Positions 28,039 to 57,185 of a stretch of 64,000 nt of DNA are shown in pieces (positions within the stretch are counted from its first letter, which is position 1; the number at the start of each line of letters is the position of its first letter). The notes under the pieces were generated by a model, which had not been told where the DNA came from, made no database searches, and saw only the letters and a list, made by a program, of their open reading frames with translations. The stretch is from Mesobacillus subterraneus (GTDB taxonomy: Bacteria; Bacillota; Bacilli; Bacillales; Cytobacillaceae): positions 248,001-312,000 of the forward strand of contig NZ_CP129019.1 of assembly GCF_020524355.2 (NCBI RefSeq), read 5' to 3'. Position numbers and translations under genes: made by a program.

Positions 28039-29059
28039 CTACAGCATTAGCACTACCAATAAATACCCGAACAGCGATAGCAGCACAGAACCAGCAAGTC
28101 CTGCCGACAAAGCCTTTCCGCCCATTTGCTTAAATGATTTAAAGTCAACATTCAATCCGAGTCCAGCCATTGCCATGCCGATGAGCAGATAGGCGAGGCT
28201 GACGCTGGCAGACGCTGCGCCATCGCTGACAACGCCTGTTGTATTGAACGCGCTCACTGCAAGGAACCCAAGGATGAACCATGGAATCGGAAGGCTGGAC
28301 AATGTCATCTTTTGACCAGCGTCACCAGCTTCTTTCCGCTGTAAAAAGAATCCTATTAAAATAGCGACGGGAACAAGCAGCGCTACCCTGGTCAATTTTA
28401 CGATAATGGCGAGGTCGAGGGCAGCCTGTCCCGCCGGGTCGGCAGCAGCGACGACATGGGCGATTTCATGCAGGGTGCCACCCGCAAATACTCCATAATC
28501 AAGTGCTTTCAAGTCAAGATACGAGAAGATCAAGGTATAAAGAATGGTGAAAATCGTTCCTAATACAGCGACATTGGCTGCTCCTACAGCGGTTTCTTTT
28601 TCATTAGCCTTGATGACTGGGGCGATGGCAACAACTGCAGCAGCTCCCGCAAATCGCTGTCCCGCAGGCAGTCAGGATGCCAAGCCTTTTTTCAACCTTA
28701 AAAAGCCTGCTCAAACCATAGACTACGACCAGGGCAAACACCAGATTCGCAAAGGCAATTAAAAATACCGTCGATCCGGCATTGTAAATATCATACAGAT
28801 TCAGCCTGAATCCAAGCAATATGATTCCGAGACGAAGCAGCTTTTTGCTTGAATAGGAAGCACCTTCCAACAGGCCGTCGTTCACTCCGGCAGACGCCCG
28901 CCAAATCATTCCCAGCATGATGGCAATGACAAGCTGGCCCATGATCGAAAAGAATGGCAGGCCGGCGATCAACCGGGCAGCGAGAGCCAGCGCCAGAGTC
29001 AGGGCAATCCCCTTCATGACAGGCATGGTAAAACGGGGCAGCAGTTCATTTATTTTCAT
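28039..29059 (-). pseudogene. YeiH/UPF0324 membrane transporter gene, frameshifted
   Basis: Two frames together give about 339 residues of the UPF0324/YeiH family, putative sulfur-anion or sulfonate-type exporters with about ten membrane helices. The N-terminal part ends at LTACGTAICG and the rest resumes as AAAVVAIAPVIKANEK after one surplus base. The break is at the GGG (CCC on the plus strand) at 28646-28648. Total length exceeds a multiple of three by one. ATG 29059 follows AAAGGA. The family's substrate is not proven. Single-base nature means a sequencing error cannot be excluded. Confidence 0.85.
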
Positions 29060-36421: not shown

Positions 36422-37144
36422 CTAATTGAGAAGACTTTTCCATTCATTTATAAAAGTGGAAGCAGATGCGTTGGGGGATGACAACACTTCCTCTGTGGGA
36501 CCGGTCTGTTTAAGCTTGCCATCCATCAGGATCGCCAGCGTTCCGGCAAGGTATTTCAATTCCATAAGATCATGGCTGACAAAGACGGTCGTCGTATTCG
36601 TCTGCTGTATGATCGTCCTAATGTCCTTCAATAGCTGCACCTTGGTGGGGAAGTCAAGGGCAGAGAAAGGTTCATCGAGGAACAGGACTTCAGGCTCGAG
36701 CACCATCGCCCTCGCAAGGTTGACACGCTGAGCCTCGCCGCCGGATAGATGGGCGGCATGTTTTTTTGTAAGATGGCTGATTTGGAATTTATCGAGCCAA
36801 TAGGCGACCTTCTGTTTGACCTCTTGTCGAGGCAGCTTGCGAAGCTTTAAGCCGACCGCGACGTTTTGGAAGACTGTAGTATCAAGGAGAAGCGGCTGCT
36901 GCATTGCGACTGCAAATCTTCTGCGCATATCCAGTGTCAATTCGTTCGTTATGTCCTTGCCACTCAGAAAAATCGATCCCTCAGCAGGCTTTTCCAGCAG
37001 AGCCAAAGCCTTGATGAATGTACTTTTTCCAGAGCCGTTCGGACCCATGATCCCGAGCACTTCACCCTCCTTAATCTCAAAATGGGGGATGGATAGAAGA
37101 ATTTTTTTGCCGGCTCTCACTTCCAGGTTTTCAACAGTAATCAT
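36422..37144 (-). CDS. tupC: Tungstate ABC transporter ATP-binding protein
   Basis: This 240-residue ATPase powers TupAB. Walker A is GPNGSGKST, the signature is HLSGGEAQR, and Walker B is EVLFLDEPFSALD with the switch His in VSHD. The start is ATG 37144, which overlaps the tupB stop (ATGA). A much longer frame runs upstream only because tupB is open in this phase too. It is the last gene of the operon and is followed by a strong terminator. Confidence 0.93.
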   Translation of the reverse strand: MITVENLEVRAGKKILLSIPHFEIKEGEVLGIMGPNGSGKSTFIKALALLEKPAEGSIFLSGKDITNELTLDMRRRFAVAMQQPLLLDTTVFQNVAVGLKLRKLPRQEVKQKVAYWLDKFQISHLTKKHAAHLSGGEAQRVNLARAMVLEPEVLFLDEPFSALDFPTKVQLLKDIRTIIQQTNTTTVFVSHDLMELKYLAGTLAILMDGKLKQTGPTEEVLSSPNASASTFINEWKSLLN

Positions 37145-37839
37145 TGGCTTCGCTTCCTTTGCTGTAAATAAGTCAGGGTAAACGTAATGATGAAAGCCAG
37201 AGTCATCAGGATGAACGAAAGTGCCAGGGCGACATCGAAGTTGCCTTTTGATACTTCCATGACAATCGAGGTCGTCAGGATCCTTGTCTCGCCGCTGATA
37301 TTGCCGCCGACCATCATGGCCGCACCGACTTCGGCAATGACCCGTCCGAACCCGGCGATGATGGCAGCAAGGATCGCTAGTTTTACCTCTTTCATCAAAA
37401 TCCAGTAAAGCTGCAGCTTCGTCGCACCAAGCGCTTTCACCTGTAAAATCAACTTCGGATTGATCTGCTGGAATGCCGTACTTGTCAGCGCTGTAACAAT
37501 CGGCAGCGATACCAATATCTGAGCCATGATGATCGCAGTCGGCGTGTAAAGCCAGGCAAGATCGCCAAGCGGGCCTGAACGCCACAGGAAAAGAGTGATC
37601 CACAGACCGGCGACCACAGGAGGGAGTCCCATGCCGATATTGACTACGGCATGGATGAACTTCCTGCCTGGAAAGCGGGCTAGTCCAAGGAACATCCCAG
37701 CCGGAATGCCGATCAATGTACTGATCAGGACAGCGGTAATCGAGACTCTCAATGTCAGCAAAGTAATCTCGATAATTTCCCGGTTTCCCGATAAGATCAT
37801 CTCTATCGCTTTTTTCAATCCTTCTAGTAAAAGTTCCAT
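37141..37839 (-). CDS. tupB: Tungstate ABC transporter permease
   Basis: This 232-residue inner-membrane protein has about five helices and the EAA-type loop LGATKLQLYWILMKEVKLAILAA that contacts the ATPase. It is in the CysTW/ModB-like class. The frame starts at TTG 37845, two codons before ATG 37839, which I prefer. Its stop overlaps the tupC start. No strong ribosome-binding site is seen, so translation may depend on coupling or a weak GAAAG. Confidence 0.92.
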   Translation of the reverse strand: MELLLEGLKKAIEMILSGNREIIEITLLTLRVSITAVLISTLIGIPAGMFLGLARFPGRKFIHAVVNIGMGLPPVVAGLWITLFLWRSGPLGDLAWLYTPTAIIMAQILVSLPIVTALTSTAFQQINPKLILQVKALGATKLQLYWILMKEVKLAILAAIIAGFGRVIAEVGAAMMVGGNISGETRILTTSIVMEVSKGNFDVALALSFILMTLAFIITFTLTYLQQRKRSQ

Positions 37840-37901
37840 GCGCAATCAGGCTTTCTATCTTAATTTTATCTGTATAGTAAAATTATACATTACTAACTAT
37901 G

Positions 37902-38768
37902 CTATTCGAATAAGAAAAATAGAGCCTCACCATACTCATCCATGCCGAATTCCTTGATGATGTTCTTTGTTTCACCTGCAATCATGAATTCAACGAATGC
38001 TTTCGCACCATCTGCATTCACTTTTTCATGCTTTCCGTCGTTTACCTGCATAACATGGTATATATTCAGCAAGCTTTCATCGCCTTCTACCAAAATCTCA
38101 GTATCAGGCATGTTCTTTTTTTGTGCGAGGTAGGTAGCTCTGTCTGTCAAAGTATAGCCCTTTTTCTCGGAAGCAATCTTGAGGGTTGCACCCATGCCCT
38201 GTCCAGACTCAATATAGGCATCGCCCAATGATTTGGGATCAAGGGAAGATTTCTTCCAAAGCTCTAGTTCTTTTTTATGAGTACCAGAATCGTCACCGCG
38301 GGACACGAATGAAGCCTTCGATTCGGTGATTTTCGCCAATGCCTCAGGAACAGATAATCCTTTTATTTCAGCTGGGTCTTCAGCAGGACCAACTACAATG
38401 AAGTCATTGTACATGACCTTTTGGCGATTAATCGCATCACCGCTTTTCACCAATTCCTCTTCCGCTGCAGGAGCGTGGACAAGAAGGACATCGGCTTCAC
38501 CGCGTGTTCCCATTTCAAGTGCTTGGCCAGTTCCGACCGCAATCGTTTTTACATTGTAGTTATTGTTTTTTTCAAATTCCGGTATTAATACATCAAGCAA
38601 TCCGCTATCCTGTGTGCTGGTAGTCGTCGCAAGGATTAAATCCGTTGGTTTTTCTTTTGACGCTTTTTCTGGTTCCTTGACCGTTGAATCAGATGAAGAA
38701 TCTGAACAACCGGTCACAAGAGCTAACAAAAATACAAGTAAGATAGAAAGTAATTTTTTCAGTTTCAT
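37902..38768 (-). CDS. tupA: Tungstate-binding lipoprotein
   Basis: This 288-residue extracellular solute-binding lipoprotein has a lipobox ending LVTGC21. The oxyanion-binding TTTS (residues 48-51) in LATTTSTQDSGLLD is the TupA signature and differs from molybdate ModA. It captures tungstate with high affinity. The frame is open 78 nt upstream, but ATG 38768 has GGAGG. It begins 4 nt after the regulator stop. This is strong support for tungsten use by the AOR encoded nearby. Confidence 0.95.
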   Translation of the reverse strand: MKLKKLLSILLVFLLALVTGCSDSSSDSTVKEPEKASKEKPTDLILATTTSTQDSGLLDVLIPEFEKNNNYNVKTIAVGTGQALEMGTRGEADVLLVHAPAAEEELVKSGDAINRQKVMYNDFIVVGPAEDPAEIKGLSVPEALAKITESKASFVSRGDDSGTHKKELELWKKSSLDPKSLGDAYIESGQGMGATLKIASEKKGYTLTDRATYLAQKKNMPDTEILVEGDESLLNIYHVMQVNDGKHEKVNADGAKAFVEFMIAGETKNIIKEFGMDEYGEALFFLFE

Positions 38769-38772
38769 TGTT

Positions 38773-39693
38773 TTATGCCTCCGACAAGTGATTTCCGTAA
38801 ATGATTTTCCCGAATTCCTCAGCATCATAGCCGTCAAGGTCTGCAATGCTGTCCTTGAAATTGGTAAGCTGAATCAGATCAATCAAATGGTGGAGAGCTT
38901 CTTTGTTTCCGGGAGTCCAGCGGAATACAAGATCAAATTGTTCCTTCGTCAGCGGGATGAAATCGAGTCCAAGCTGGCTTGCTGCACATCTAATTCCAAA
39001 AGCGGCGTCAGCTGTTCCTCTGCTGATATGGGCCCCCGCGCCAAGGTGTGTCCATTCTTCATTTTCATAACCCTTCACTGCCACGGGCTCAAGCTTTTCA
39101 CTCGCCAGAAAGGAATCGAGCAGGAAGCGGGTTCCGGCTCCTTTTTGCCGATTGATGATCATGACATCACTTCTTGCCAGGTCTTTGACTCCGGTGATGT
39201 TCTTTGGATTGCCTTTTGCCACGATCAAGCCCTGATCCCGGGAAGCAAGTCTCATCACCGTAATCGGTTCATGAACAAACAGCTGGCGGATGAAGGGAAG
39301 ATTGTATTGCTGCGATGCTGGGTCGAGCAAGTGGACGGCAGCGATATCGGCACTGCCTCGGTAAAGCATCATCAATCCTTCAAGACTGCCGATATAGGAG
39401 GGAGTGACGGAAAGTCCTGTTCCTTCAGAGGCTATGTATTTTACTAGCTGTTCGACAAGGAAATCGTGACTGCCTGCCAGCTGTAACGAATGCTGTGCTG
39501 CCGTCTTTGATTCCTGTGATTTTATCGGGTTTGCGGACATGCTAGCTTTAAATCTTTCAAACTCGCTTTCTTCGATCCGCATTTTATTGCCGACCTTAAA
39601 AGCTGCAAGATCGCCACGCTTTATCATCTCATAGACAGTATTCTTGGAGATTTTCAGCATGGAAGCGATTTCATCTGGAGTGTAGATTTGCAA
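38773..39693 (-). CDS. HTH regulator with oxyanion-binding-like domain
   Basis: This 306-residue protein joins an N-terminal MerR/excisionase-type helix-turn-helix (TPDEIASMLKISKNTVYEMI, residues 5-24) to a PBP-like domain (about 70-300) of the kind seen in molybdate/tungstate-sensing regulators. It starts at TTG 39693 after AAAGGAGG. As first gene of the tup operon, it probably senses tungstate or molybdate and controls the operon. It stands divergent from the HesB-like selenoprotein gene, so both could be targets. Confidence 0.88.
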   Translation of the reverse strand: MQIYTPDEIASMLKISKNTVYEMIKRGDLAAFKVGNKMRIEESEFERFKASMSANPIKSQESKTAAQHSLQLAGSHDFLVEQLVKYIASEGTGLSVTPSYIGSLEGLMMLYRGSADIAAVHLLDPASQQYNLPFIRQLFVHEPITVMRLASRDQGLIVAKGNPKNITGVKDLARSDVMIINRQKGAGTRFLLDSFLASEKLEPVAVKGYENEEWTHLGAGAHISRGTADAAFGIRCAASQLGLDFIPLTKEQFDLVFRWTPGNKEALHHLIDLIQLTNFKDSIADLDGYDAEEFGKIIYGNHLSEA

Positions 39694-39791
39694 TGTATTA
39701 CCTCCTTTTCATCCTAAACTAAATATAATAGAATATTTAGTAGATGGATATACATTTTGTTTGGTTTTGTTATGTTTTGTTTAGTTTCGTC

Positions 39792-39811
39792 ACGTTTTAA
39801 TCATAAAACGT
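39792..39811. promoter_or_regulatory. Inverted repeat in the tup/HesB divergent region
   Basis: ACGTTTTA and TAAAACGT form a perfect 8-bp inverted repeat around ATCA, between two divergent genes. It is a candidate operator for the HTH regulator. Confidence 0.5.
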
Positions 39812-39860
39812 TCACAATTGTAGCTGGAGGCGCTTGTTTTTTTCCAAATATAACCTTCAC

Positions 39861-39882
39861 ATAATACTCCGGGCAGTATTAT
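39861..39882. promoter_or_regulatory. Second inverted repeat upstream of the HesB-like gene
   Basis: ATAATACT and AGTATTAT form a perfect 8-bp inverted repeat around CCGGGC, 68 bp before the HesB-like start. It may be an operator or a leader hairpin. Confidence 0.5.
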
Positions 39883-39949
39883 ATATTTCTTATAGATACC
39901 ATGGTAAACTAAGCATTAGACAGAATTGATGTAGAAAGGAACAGGGAGA

Positions 39950-40225
39950 ATGCGAATTTCAGATAAAGCGCGCGACATTTTAAAAGAAATTCTCGCCGAG
40001 CGCAAAGCAGAAGGTATCCGCGTCTACTTCGGCGGCTTTGGCTGAGGAGGCCCGCAGATTGGGCTGGCTCTGGAGGAGCCGGAAGAAGATGATCATGTAG
40101 TTGTAATCAATGAAATCCAGGTCGCTATCGAATCCAATATTGTGGACTATACTCAGGGCATGGCACTTGAGTATGACGAGTACCGTGAAGGTCTGGTCCT
40201 TATGGGCGGAGACGGCGGCTGCTGA
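39950..40225 (+). CDS. HesB-like selenoprotein (in-frame TGA as Sec)
   Basis: The gene reads 91 residues if TGA at 40043-40045 is decoded as selenocysteine (Sec32), in VYFGGFG-U-GGPQIGLALEE. Both flanks match the HesB/IscA-type fold and the frame continues to a normal TGA at 40223. Eighteen nt after the TGA, CUGGCUC (40064-40070) and GAGCCGG (40076-40082) form a 7-bp stem with loop UGGAG, whose G lies in the first two positions. This fits the bacterial SECIS model. HesB-like selenoproteins are a known family. The protein ends GGDGGC, and the start follows AGGGAG. The function is unknown and selA/B/D are not in this window. Confidence 0.8.
40064..40082 (+). promoter_or_regulatory. Candidate bacterial SECIS element
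   Basis: A 7-bp stem with a 5-nt apical loop (UGGAG) starts 18 nt after the in-frame UGA; the loop is 25 nt away. The conserved loop G is present. SelB would bind here. Confidence 0.7.
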
Positions 40226-40238
40226 TAGAATGGAAAAG

Positions 40239-40274
40239 GCACACCATTTCATGCGAATGGTGTGCTTTTTTTGT
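40239..40274 (+). terminator. Terminator of the HesB-like gene
   Basis: GCACACCATT pairs with AATGGTGTGC around TCATGCG, followed by seven Ts. It lies just after the second TGA, supporting a gene that extends past the first TGA. Confidence 0.9.
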
Positions 40275-40288
40275 TTGATAGTAGATTG

Positions 40289-40412
40289 AACTGGAAAAAA
40301 TCAGCTTAAATTTCCAATTCGCTATAAAAATTGGATTTTCGCTATAAAAATGAGAAAATCGCTATAAAAACGAAAAAATCGCTATAAAATCCAGATTTTC
40401 GCTATAAAAAAT
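40289..40412. repeat. Second hairpin plus five TCGCTATAAAAA repeats
   Basis: CGCTATA occurs at 40320, 40340, 40360, 40380 and 40400, an exact 20-bp period. The preceding CTGGAAAAAATCAGC is shared with the 23117-23245 element. It lies between convergent genes. Confidence 0.85.
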
Positions 40413-40413
40413 T

Positions 40414-41196
40414 TTAGAACTGCCCTGCATGCTGAAAATACAGCACAACAAGCCCCATTATCCACACATAAATCGCAAAAGGCTTCAAAGAGTGATTTTT
40501 TAAATAGCCAATCATCCATTTTACTGCGATATAACCGAAAATTCCTGTTGAAATGATGCCAATCAACAATGCCTGAATTGAAATCGTCTCACTGCCGCCG
40601 CTGAAAAGGTCTTTTCCCTGCAGAAAAATTGCACCAAGAATCGCTGGTGTCGACAGCAGGAAGGAGAAGTAGGCCGCTGTCTCGCGATCAAGCTTCCGCC
40701 AAAGCGCCGCGACAATCGTCAAGCCGGATCGGGAAATCGCTGGAAAAATTGCCGCCGCCTGGAAACTTCCTATTACAAGTGCGTCCGTATAACTGATATC
40801 GTCCATCTTTTTGCGCCCATTTTTTATAGAATCGGCGAACCACATCAATGTCCCAGTAATCAGAAATTCCCAGCCAATCGTCACACCGGTCTTGGAGATC
40901 TCATCAAAGTAATCCTCAAACAGCAAGCCGACAACGACAGCCGGCAGCGTACCGACGACAAGGAGAAAGGTCAGCTTCCCAAATGGATTTTTTAGAATTT
41001 TGATGAATTCATATCTATAAAACACAAACACCGCCAGCAGCGTACCTACATGAAGCATCGTGTCCAGCAGCAGGCCGGCCTCTTCAAGACCGAATAAATT
41101 CCTGCCCAGATAAAGATGACCGGTACTGCTGATCGGCAAAAACTCAGTCAGGCCCTGGATAATACCAAGGATGAAAGCTTCAATTTTTGATAGCAT
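40414..41196 (-). CDS. uppP: Undecaprenyl-diphosphatase
   Basis: This 260-residue membrane enzyme (BacA/UppP family) dephosphorylates undecaprenyl diphosphate, recycling the lipid carrier for cell-wall synthesis and giving bacitracin tolerance. GLTEFLPISSTGHL near the N-terminus and PAISRSG are the catalytic motifs. About seven helices are predicted. The frame extends 21 nt upstream; ATG 41196 is the likelier start. It stands alone and converges on the HesB-like gene. Confidence 0.94.
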   Translation of the reverse strand: MLSKIEAFILGIIQGLTEFLPISSTGHLYLGRNLFGLEEAGLLLDTMLHVGTLLAVFVFYRYEFIKILKNPFGKLTFLLVVGTLPAVVVGLLFEDYFDEISKTGVTIGWEFLITGTLMWFADSIKNGRKKMDDISYTDALVIGSFQAAAIFPAISRSGLTIVAALWRKLDRETAAYFSFLLSTPAILGAIFLQGKDLFSGGSETISIQALLIGIISTGIFGYIAVKWMIGYLKNHSLKPFAIYVWIMGLVVLYFQHAGQF

Positions 41197-54776: not shown

Positions 54777-54804
54777 AAAAGAGTTAAAGGGGGAGACAAA
54801 TTTG

Positions 54805-57185
54805 ATGCGACAAATTCAAAAGGCAGCGGTGCTTGGTTCAGGTGTCATGGGATCAGGGATTGCCGCACATCTGGCAAACATCGGGATTCCTACATTGCTG
54901 CTTGATATTGTACCTCGGGAATTAACGGAACAGGAAAAAGCGAAAGGCCTTACGCTTGAAGACAAGCAGGTGCGCAACCGGATTAGTGCAGGATCAGTGC
55001 AAAAGTTATTGAAGCAAAAACCGGCACCTTTGGCCTCCAAAAAGAATCTTGCTCTGATAGAAGCGGGCAATTTCGAAGACGATATGGAAAAACTCAAGGA
55101 TGTTGATTGGGTAATCGAAGTAGTTGTTGAAAACCTTGATATAAAAAAGAAAGTTTTTACTGATGTAGATAAATATCGCAAGCAGGGAAGCATCATCAGC
55201 TCTAACACGTCAGGGATTTCTGTCGAGGCAATGGCTGAAGGGCGTTCTGAAGATTTCAGGAAGCATTTCCTGGGCACCCATTTCTTCAACCCGCCGCGCT
55301 ATCTGAAGCTGCTTGAAGTAATCCCTACTAAAGATACGGACCCTGAAGTCCTTTCATTCGTGAAGACTTTCGGTGAAGACAAATTAGGCAAGGGAGTCGT
55401 TGAAGCGAAGGATACACCTAACTTCATCGCCAACCGAATCGGTACTTACGGCTTGCTGGTAACAGTAAGGGAAATGGTGAAAGGCGGCTACAGTGTTGGT
55501 GAAGTTGACTCTGTAACTGGACCAATGATTGGCCGTCCTAAGAGCGCCACATTCCGCACGCTCGATGTCGTCGGTCTTGATACTTTCGCCCATGTTGCGA
55601 AAAACGTGTATGACCAGGTTGATGGGGAAGAAAAGGAAGTCTTTGAAGTTCCAGAGTTCATGAAGAAGATGCTTGAGAACGGCTGGCTAGGAAGCAAGTC
55701 AGGCTAGGGATTCTTCCTGAAGCAGGGCAAAGAGATCCTTGAACTGGATCCGGAAACTCTTGAATACGGACCACGCAAAAAACTGAAGACAGCGTCTACT
55801 GAAATGGCGAAGCAGGAAAAAGGTCTTGCCAATAAAATGAAAGCGCTTGTTTATAGTAATGACCGTGCAGGTGAGCTTTTATGGAATATTTTCAGCCCTG
55901 TGCTCGTTTACTCCGCTGACCTTCTAGGTACGATTGCCGATGATATCGTCGCCGTGGACCGGGCGATGAAGTGGGGATTCGGCTGGGAAATGGGACCTTT
56001 CGAAGCTTGGGATGCACTAGGTGTCGAAAAAGCCATCAGCAAAATGGAGTCTGAAGGCAAGACTGTTCCTGGATGGGTAAAAGAAATGGTCGAGAAAGGC
56101 TTCACTTCATTCTATAAAGAAGAAGATGGCAAGCTGAGCTACTATCACAACGGTGAATACGTAGCTGTAGAAGAAAATCCAAAAGCGATCAACCTGAAGC
56201 TATTGAAAAAGCAAAAAGGCGTCATCAAAAAGAATGGCGGCGCGAGCCTGATCGACCTTGGCGATGGCATCGCATTGCTGGAATTCCACTCACATAGCAA
56301 CTCAATCGGGCCAGACATCCTCCAGATGATCAACTTCGCGATTGATGAAGTGGAAAAGAACTATAGGGCCTTGTCATTGGCAACCAGGGTAAAAACTTCT
56401 CAGTTGGTGCAAACCTGGCCATGATTCTGATGGAAGCGCAAGACGATAACATTTGGGATCTTGATATGGTCGTTCGCCAATTCCAGCAGACGACGATGAA
56501 AATCAAGTACTCTTCTAAGCCGGTTGTAGCTGCACCATTCGGAATGACGCTTGGCGGAGGCGCTGAAATGTGCTTGCCGGCAGCGCATATCCAGGCTTCT
56601 ATGGAAACATATATGGGACTTGTTGAAGCCGGTGTAGGCCTGATTCCTGGCGGCGGGGGTAACAAGGAGCTTTACATCAAGCATCTTGAAGGACTGCCAA
56701 AAGGCGTGGATTTCGACCTTCAAAAAGTTGCGAATAAAGTATTTGAAACGATCGCAATGGCTAAAGTCTCCACTTCTGGAGAAGAAGCTCGCGATAATAA
56801 CTTCCTGAATGAAGCAGATGGCATCAGCGTGAACAGCGATCACCTGTTATATGATGCGAAACAGGCTGCATTGAATTTATATGAAAGCGGTTATAAAGCA
56901 CCGGTGAGAAAGAAAGTACCTGTCACTGGGGAGCCAGGCTATGCAACTCTGCTTCTGGGTGCCCAAACTATGCAACTGTCAGGTTACATTTCTGAGCATG
57001 ACTTGAAAATCGCGAAGAAACTAGCGTATGTTATCGCCGGCGGAAAAGTGCCATACGGAACCGAGGTAGATGAGCAATACTTACTCGACCTAGAAAGAGA
57101 AGCTTTCTTGAGCCTTGTGGCAGAGCCGAAATCTCAGCAGCGCATGCAGCATATGCTCGTAAAAGGCAAGCCATTGCGCAACTAA
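54805..57185 (+). pseudogene. fadN: FadN, 3-hydroxyacyl-CoA dehydrogenase/enoyl-CoA hydratase, two lesions
   Basis: The gene would encode about 793 residues: an NAD-binding dehydrogenase half (VLGSGVMGSGIAAHLANIG at the start, HFFNPPRYLKLLEVIP) and a C-terminal enoyl-CoA hydratase half. Two lesions are visible. TAG at 55705-55707 interrupts SG-*-GFF, where family sequences have Q (CAG to TAG). One base is missing near 56367-56372, in the GGGCCTTG run; restoring it joins NYRAL to VIGNQGKNFSVGAN. Length is one base short of a multiple of three. Neighbouring fadA and fadE are intact. AAAGGGGGAG precedes ATG 54805. Confidence 0.9.

Follow-up and report, generated by a model that had tools for sequence, protein, structure and literature searches.

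Probable selenocysteine in a HesB-like protein

A short gene in Mesobacillus subterraneus is interrupted at its thirty-second codon by TGA, raising the question of whether this codon ends a peptide or is read as selenocysteine (Sec) within a longer protein of the HesB/IscA type. We examined the gene in its surrounding window (a stretch of 64,000 nucleotides, whose coordinates are used below unless a contig or locus is named) and in related genomes. We conclude that 39950-40225, on the forward strand, is very probably a functional HesB/IscA-type selenoprotein gene. Sec insertion itself is inferred here from the conservation of the TGA, a downstream hairpin marked by frozen codon choice and by compensatory substitutions, the loss of that hairpin in cysteine-containing relatives, and the presence of Sec machinery.

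The TGA codon is conserved at the first cysteine position

The frame opens at ATG 39950, behind a probable ribosome-binding site on the same strand (AGGGAGA, 39943-39949, recognized from the sequence), and positions 39950-40225 translate as MRISDKARDILKEILAERKAEGIRVYFGGFG-U-GGPQIGLALEEPEEDDHVVVINEIQVAIESNIVDYTQGMALEYDEYREGLVLMGGDGGC, a product of 91 residues. The first TGA (codon 32, 40043-40045) lies inside GFG-U-GG, at the first conserved cysteine position of the HesB/IscA family. It is followed by 59 sense codons, the last of which encodes Cys91 (40220-40222), a candidate partner of Sec32. Translation would then meet a second TGA at 40223-40225, the first half of a tandem stop TGA-TAG (40223-40228), with an intrinsic terminator behind it on the forward strand (40239-40272; the hairpin itself spans 40239-40265) consisting of a 10-bp stem and a run of T. 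An earlier reading of the sequence alone had described 59 codons from the TGA to a stop and then a terminator, and both are confirmed from the sequence. That this stop is itself a TGA is an addition to that reading.

A search of the GTDB family with the protein (P0001, with C substituted for U; E 1e-3) found matches in 147 of 193 genomes. Among the 150 matches listed, 148 have one TGA, one has TAA (genome G010) and one has no stop codon (G032). Reading 70 of these 150 in full, with our own gene among them, we found TGA at codon 32 in 68, TAA in a single gene (L094) and TGT in another (L108), which bears out the earlier placement of an in-frame TGA at the conserved HesB/IscA cysteine. The last residue is likewise cysteine in 68 of the 70. 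The TAA gene, L094 in G010, retains an intact hairpin in a genome that has both selA and tRNA-Sec, and we counted it against the selenoprotein reading. Homologs with cysteine at residue 32, which the sequence-only reading had named as a comparison to make, are present (L108, L109-L113, L115 and L116).

A SECIS-type hairpin follows the TGA codon

Behind the TGA lies a hairpin of the SECIS type (40064-40082, forward strand), whose arms at 40064-40070 and 40076-40082 enclose the loop UGGAG at 40071-40075. The structure, CUGGCUC / UGGAG / GAGCCGG, has seven pairs including one G-U, and begins 18 nt from the TGA with its loop at 25 nt, the spacing of a bacterial SECIS element. The 7-bp stem, loop and spacing had been pointed out before, and the comparison of relatives supports them: in register with the TGA, all seven pairs form in 65 of 70 distinct genes and six pairs form in the other five (this set includes the paralogs L065 and L066 and the TAA gene, and excludes the TGT gene). 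All 70 have a UGGAN loop. When synonymous codons were resampled across these 70 genes, a mean of 0.9 genes formed seven pairs and none of 2000 draws gave more than 6, against the 65 observed; resampling our own gene alone gave a 7-bp stem in 1.4% of draws.

Codon usage across the hairpin points the same way. Codons 39-45 (CTG, GCT, CTG, GAT, GAG, CCG, GAA) are frozen well beyond background among 68 distinct genes: L39 is CTG in 65 of 68 (background 0.18), A40 is GCT in 67 of 68 (0.19), L41 is CTG in 67 of 68 (0.18), and E43 is GAG in 65 of 65 (0.26). The codon-bias p-values at positions 39, 40, 41 and 43 are below 1e-37, with some other codons of the gene deviating too. Compensatory changes occur in L044 (C-G for U-A), in L095 (U-A for C-G), and at pairs 1 and 3 of L066, a paralog in our own genome, and some of these changes alter the encoded residue. 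In the cysteine-containing relatives, by comparison, one to four of the seven pairs can form (eight loci, seven distinct sequences). We rejected the stronger statement that these relatives wholly lack a hairpin, as L113 can still form a 6-bp hairpin, weaker and out of register. An Rfam scan of 39500-40600, with E values up to 5, returned no SECIS-type match; its six matches were all far below gathering scores.

Selenocysteine machinery and other TGA-containing genes in the genome

The genome, a single contig of 4.79 Mb that is 99.8% complete, encodes components for Sec decoding, a check that the sequence-only reading had proposed. The genes selB (364 bits, C1:1650503) and tRNA-Sec (C1:2272917) score over their cut-offs, with ARAGORN also calling a tRNA-SeC with anticodon tca, as does selD (392 bits, C1:1843978), which contains one in-frame TGA. 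The fourth component, selA, is present and split: C1:1845480-1846866 holds two adjoining open frames (390 and 153.5 bits), separated by a one-base shift inside a run of G. We counted this split against a functional selenoprotein gene. The frameshift is probably an assembly error, because at least two further genes in the window (28063-29059 and 54802-57182) lie in two frames here and, like selA, are continuous in the near relative G078.

Other genes in the genome have in-frame TGA codons as well. The formate dehydrogenase FdhA (771 bits, over cut-off) has one in NRT-U-HAPSV. Between selD and selA lies a SelW/Rdx-like gene (L001:1084-1323) with TGA in CMQ-U, which scores over the cut-off of TIGR02174 (72.5 bits) and has a hairpin, CCGCGA-GUU-UCGCGG, behind the TGA, making it a candidate for the second clear selenoprotein of the genome. 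Two further HesB-like genes have TGA at the same position as ours: L065 (C1:3521931; E 3e-14, 36% identity), which forms six of the seven hairpin pairs, and L066 (C1:1862898; E 0.02), which forms all seven. The latter has no C-terminal cysteine and is frameshifted here in a run of A. That L066 might be a chance match was rejected on the evidence of its paired hairpin changes and of a continuous counterpart in G078 (L138), and we regard it as a third, diverged HesB gene.

Distribution of the gene and of Sec decoding

The sequence-only reading had held selenoproteins to be rare in Bacillaceae. This is wrong for the GTDB family examined here, in which selA scores over cut-off in 172 of 193 genomes and TGA-containing HesB-like genes occur in at least 113 of 193. 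Among the matches listed, these 113 genomes include none of the 21 with selA below cut-off. Taken over both groups, TGA-type HesB genes are found in at least 113 of the 172 selA genomes versus 2 of the 21 without (Fisher p 7e-7, with 113 a lower bound and kinship uncorrected).

In 19 of the 21 genomes where selA falls below cut-off, no tRNA-Sec reaches its cut-off either, and the other two (G179 and G183) are 80-81% complete. A close cysteine form of the protein is present in seven of those 19 (G064, G067, G165, G169, G172, G173 and G176). Contrary to a strict rule that the TGA form accompanies the machinery, G171 and G175, with neither selA nor tRNA-Sec over cut-off, have TGA-type HesB genes with intact hairpins (L114, L119 and L123). 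These were counted against the functional reading; it is possible that they are relics left after a recent loss of Sec decoding.

Within the genus, the gene is present in 20 of 21 genomes, the one without it being 66% complete. Named relatives are Mesobacillus selenatarsenatis, M. subterraneus, M. boroniphilus, and strains labeled Bacillus, Cytobacillus and Chryseobacterium.

A conserved tup neighborhood and two candidate operators

On the reverse strand, and transcribed away from hesB, stand a tupR-like regulator gene as its divergent neighbor (38773-39693; HTH_17 and PBP_like domains), followed by genes for a TupA-like tungstate-binding protein (37902-38771; NF041772, 236 bits, below the cut-off of 400), a TupB-like permease (37141-37845; NF041773, 166.8 bits, below the cut-off of 320) and a TupC-like ABC ATPase (36422-37141). 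That the gene is divergent from the regulator of a tungstate operon had been seen at the outset, and the arrangement recurs in three genera: tupR is divergent to hesB at 20 of 20 genus loci, at L044 and L049 of one other genus, and at L070, L092 and L099 of another. It was absent from the flanks, of 3 kb or shorter, of the other relatives examined. The linkage may be plain synteny, since rodA is also conserved beside hesB, as is uppP in L044 and L049.

The region between the divergent genes contains a palindrome, AATACT-N6-AGTATT (39863-39880), conserved at the 20 genus loci and a candidate operator of the hesB promoter. It stands upstream of TGGTAAACT, an extended -10-like element (39902-39910), and is recognizable in L044 and L049 and not in L070, L092 or L099. 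The palindrome has a single exact copy in the genome; allowing one mismatch gives three other sites, compared with two forward and two reverse for a backwards control. We rejected a shared regulon operating through this palindrome, given the one exact copy and its absence before the other selenoprotein genes scanned. On the tupR side, direct repeats of the GTTTTGTT type with a spacing of about 10 bp lie at 39757-39800 and also occur in other genus members and in L092 and L099; they are a candidate operator of the tupR regulator. Judged by sequence, the palindrome and the GTTTTGTT repeats look like two separate controls. The shared Se/W redox system suggested by the sequence-only reading is a conjecture, with the divergent arrangement and the TGA-containing formate dehydrogenase on one side and the separate palindrome of the hesB promoter on the other. 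Repeated units of the CGCTATAAAA type lie at 40300-40410, between hesB and uppP, and the start of this motif (TTCCAATTCGCTAT and the like) is found behind hesB in several genus members.

Proposed mechanism and alternative explanations

During translation, SelB and Sec-tRNA would bind the hairpin just behind UGA32, inserting Sec where A-type Fe-S proteins carry their first ligand cysteine, and translation would terminate at the UGA of codon 92 to give a mature protein of 91 residues. Sec32 and Cys91 would then be its two reactive residues, kept together in evolution; on our preferred reading they would share the ligation of a metal or Fe-S cluster in a selenol-ligated A-type carrier or scaffold. 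We give this carrier role about even weight. A more specific proposal is that the tup-linked HesB is a Se-dependent carrier maturing the Fe-S clusters of tungsten or selenium enzymes, the genome's own Sec formate dehydrogenase being one example, with selenium and tungsten supply coupled at one divergent locus; this is an unlikely, speculative extension.

The main alternative to a metal site is that Sec32 and Cys91 form a selenol-thiol redox pair, acting as a reductase or in peroxide or disulfide exchange. We consider this a real possibility, somewhat less probable than the carrier role: the conserved reactive residues are one Sec and one terminal Cys, and PMC13188914 describes known prokaryotic selenoproteins as mostly thought to be redox-active, while the parent family is one of Fe-S biosynthesis (PF01521, TIGR00049). 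A variant in which codon 92 also encodes Sec would give the protein two selenocysteines and a Cys-Sec terminus of the kind seen in thioredoxin reductase. This variant might appeal to the 50 non-genus genes, 48 of which end in Cys and 42 of these in Cys-Cys, and to the fact that, although codon 92 is TGA in 16 of 20 genus genes, every one of the 16 is directly followed by a second stop, TAA or TAG. However, codon 92 is TAA in the other four genus genes, and relatives in the same tup neighborhood (L044, L049, L092 and L099) have just the one matching Cys before their stop; for these reasons we read the second TGA, from sequence comparison, as an ordinary stop. The hairpin behind codon 92, moreover, is the terminator and varies in distance among the genus genes, and we hold a second Sec to be very improbable. 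The UAA or UAG directly after UGA may serve as a backup stop where Sec decoding makes UGA leaky.

TGA is formally a stop codon and selA is split in this assembly, so the locus could be imagined as a pseudogene or a short-peptide gene, with TGA32 a true stop and the frame behind it a remnant. Nevertheless, relatives with as little as about 45-50% identity still show protein-level conservation all the way from the TGA to the end of the frame. The TGA persists, and synonymous sites preserve the hairpin, leaving this the least credible of the readings considered. It is also improbable, though less so, that the selenoprotein gene is real in the lineage and silent in this strain through a truly broken selA. 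The break of selA into two frames in a run of G would fit such silencing, as would the frameshift, in a run of A, of the third HesB paralog, L066, whose counterpart in G078 is continuous. Against it, the additional split genes of the window fit assembly errors better than selective decay, and among the 20 other genomes of the genus, 18 have a selA match of E 1e-163 or better; completeness is 87% in G070 and 66% in G079, the two that do not.

HesB-like selenoproteins have been known for some twenty years without an assigned function. The present gene belongs to a divergent branch of them in genetically approachable, largely spore-forming Bacillaceae, with up to three paralogs per genome. Sec decoding is close to universal in this GTDB family (172 of 193 genomes with selA over cut-off), compared with the three selenoproteins, in three families, that a 2006 survey gives for Firmicutes/Bacillales (PMC1794560). 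Automatic annotation likely misses the gene, which falls below both curated cut-offs for its families and is ended by a standard gene caller after 31 residues. The paired Sec and Cys relatives and the conserved neighborhood make the function testable.

Relationship to known HesB-like selenoproteins and A-type carriers

The best NCBIfam match is TIGR01911 (HesB_rel_seleno; 62.3 bits, E 5e-17), below its curated cut-off of 66.35, followed by NF038090 and then TIGR00049 (E 1.5e-9). Pfam PF01521 (Fe-S_biosyn) matches at 24.1 bits (E 4.4e-5), below its cut-off of 26.3. We counted both sub-cut-off scores against the selenoprotein reading. The TIGR01911 cut-off is reached in none of 397 genomes of the order, though TGA-type matches are frequent among the matches listed. 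The protein is plainly of the HesB type. By its homology, its TGA at the cysteine position, its hairpin and the Sec-decoding genes of the genome we assign the gene to the HesB-like selenoproteins as a kind, and, as 62.3 bits falls short of 66.35, not to TIGR01911 as NCBI applies it. Among solved structures, HI1723 (2apn, E 1e-4) and AQ_1857 (1nwb, E 8e-4) show weak similarity only and, unlike our protein, are not called selenoproteins in the structure listing. An AlphaFold2 model from a 10-sequence alignment (pLDDT 47) was too poor for use.

HesB-like selenoproteins are a listed family in PMC13188914 and PMC9312934, and PMC5029168 counts 90 proteins in 86 organisms and reports Sec use already found in aerobes. 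In Methanococcus maripaludis, according to PMC11097638, a HesB-like selenoprotein was found by 75Se labeling, its function is unclear, and a mutant still fixes nitrogen. We found no paper on the present Bacillaceae branch in the open-access literature searched, and term searches in PMC12013277 and PMC5330540 were negative.

The A-type carriers IscA, SufA and ErpA (PF01521, TIGR00049) belong to the same superfamily and have Cys at the position of Sec32. Our protein differs from them in having Sec for that Cys and one terminal Cys (Cys-Cys in its cousins) rather than the CGCGxxF tail of L117-L126; it ends in GGDGGC, without the C-terminal Cys-x-Cys motif of A-type carriers. Like ours, the HesB-like selenoproteins are small proteins of the HesB/IscA type in which Sec replaces the first conserved Cys, and their UxGP motif, as given in PMC13188914, appears here as U-G-G-P. 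The known examples named in the sources read come from anaerobes, Symbiobacterium and methanogens, whereas ours represents a branch in Bacillaceae.
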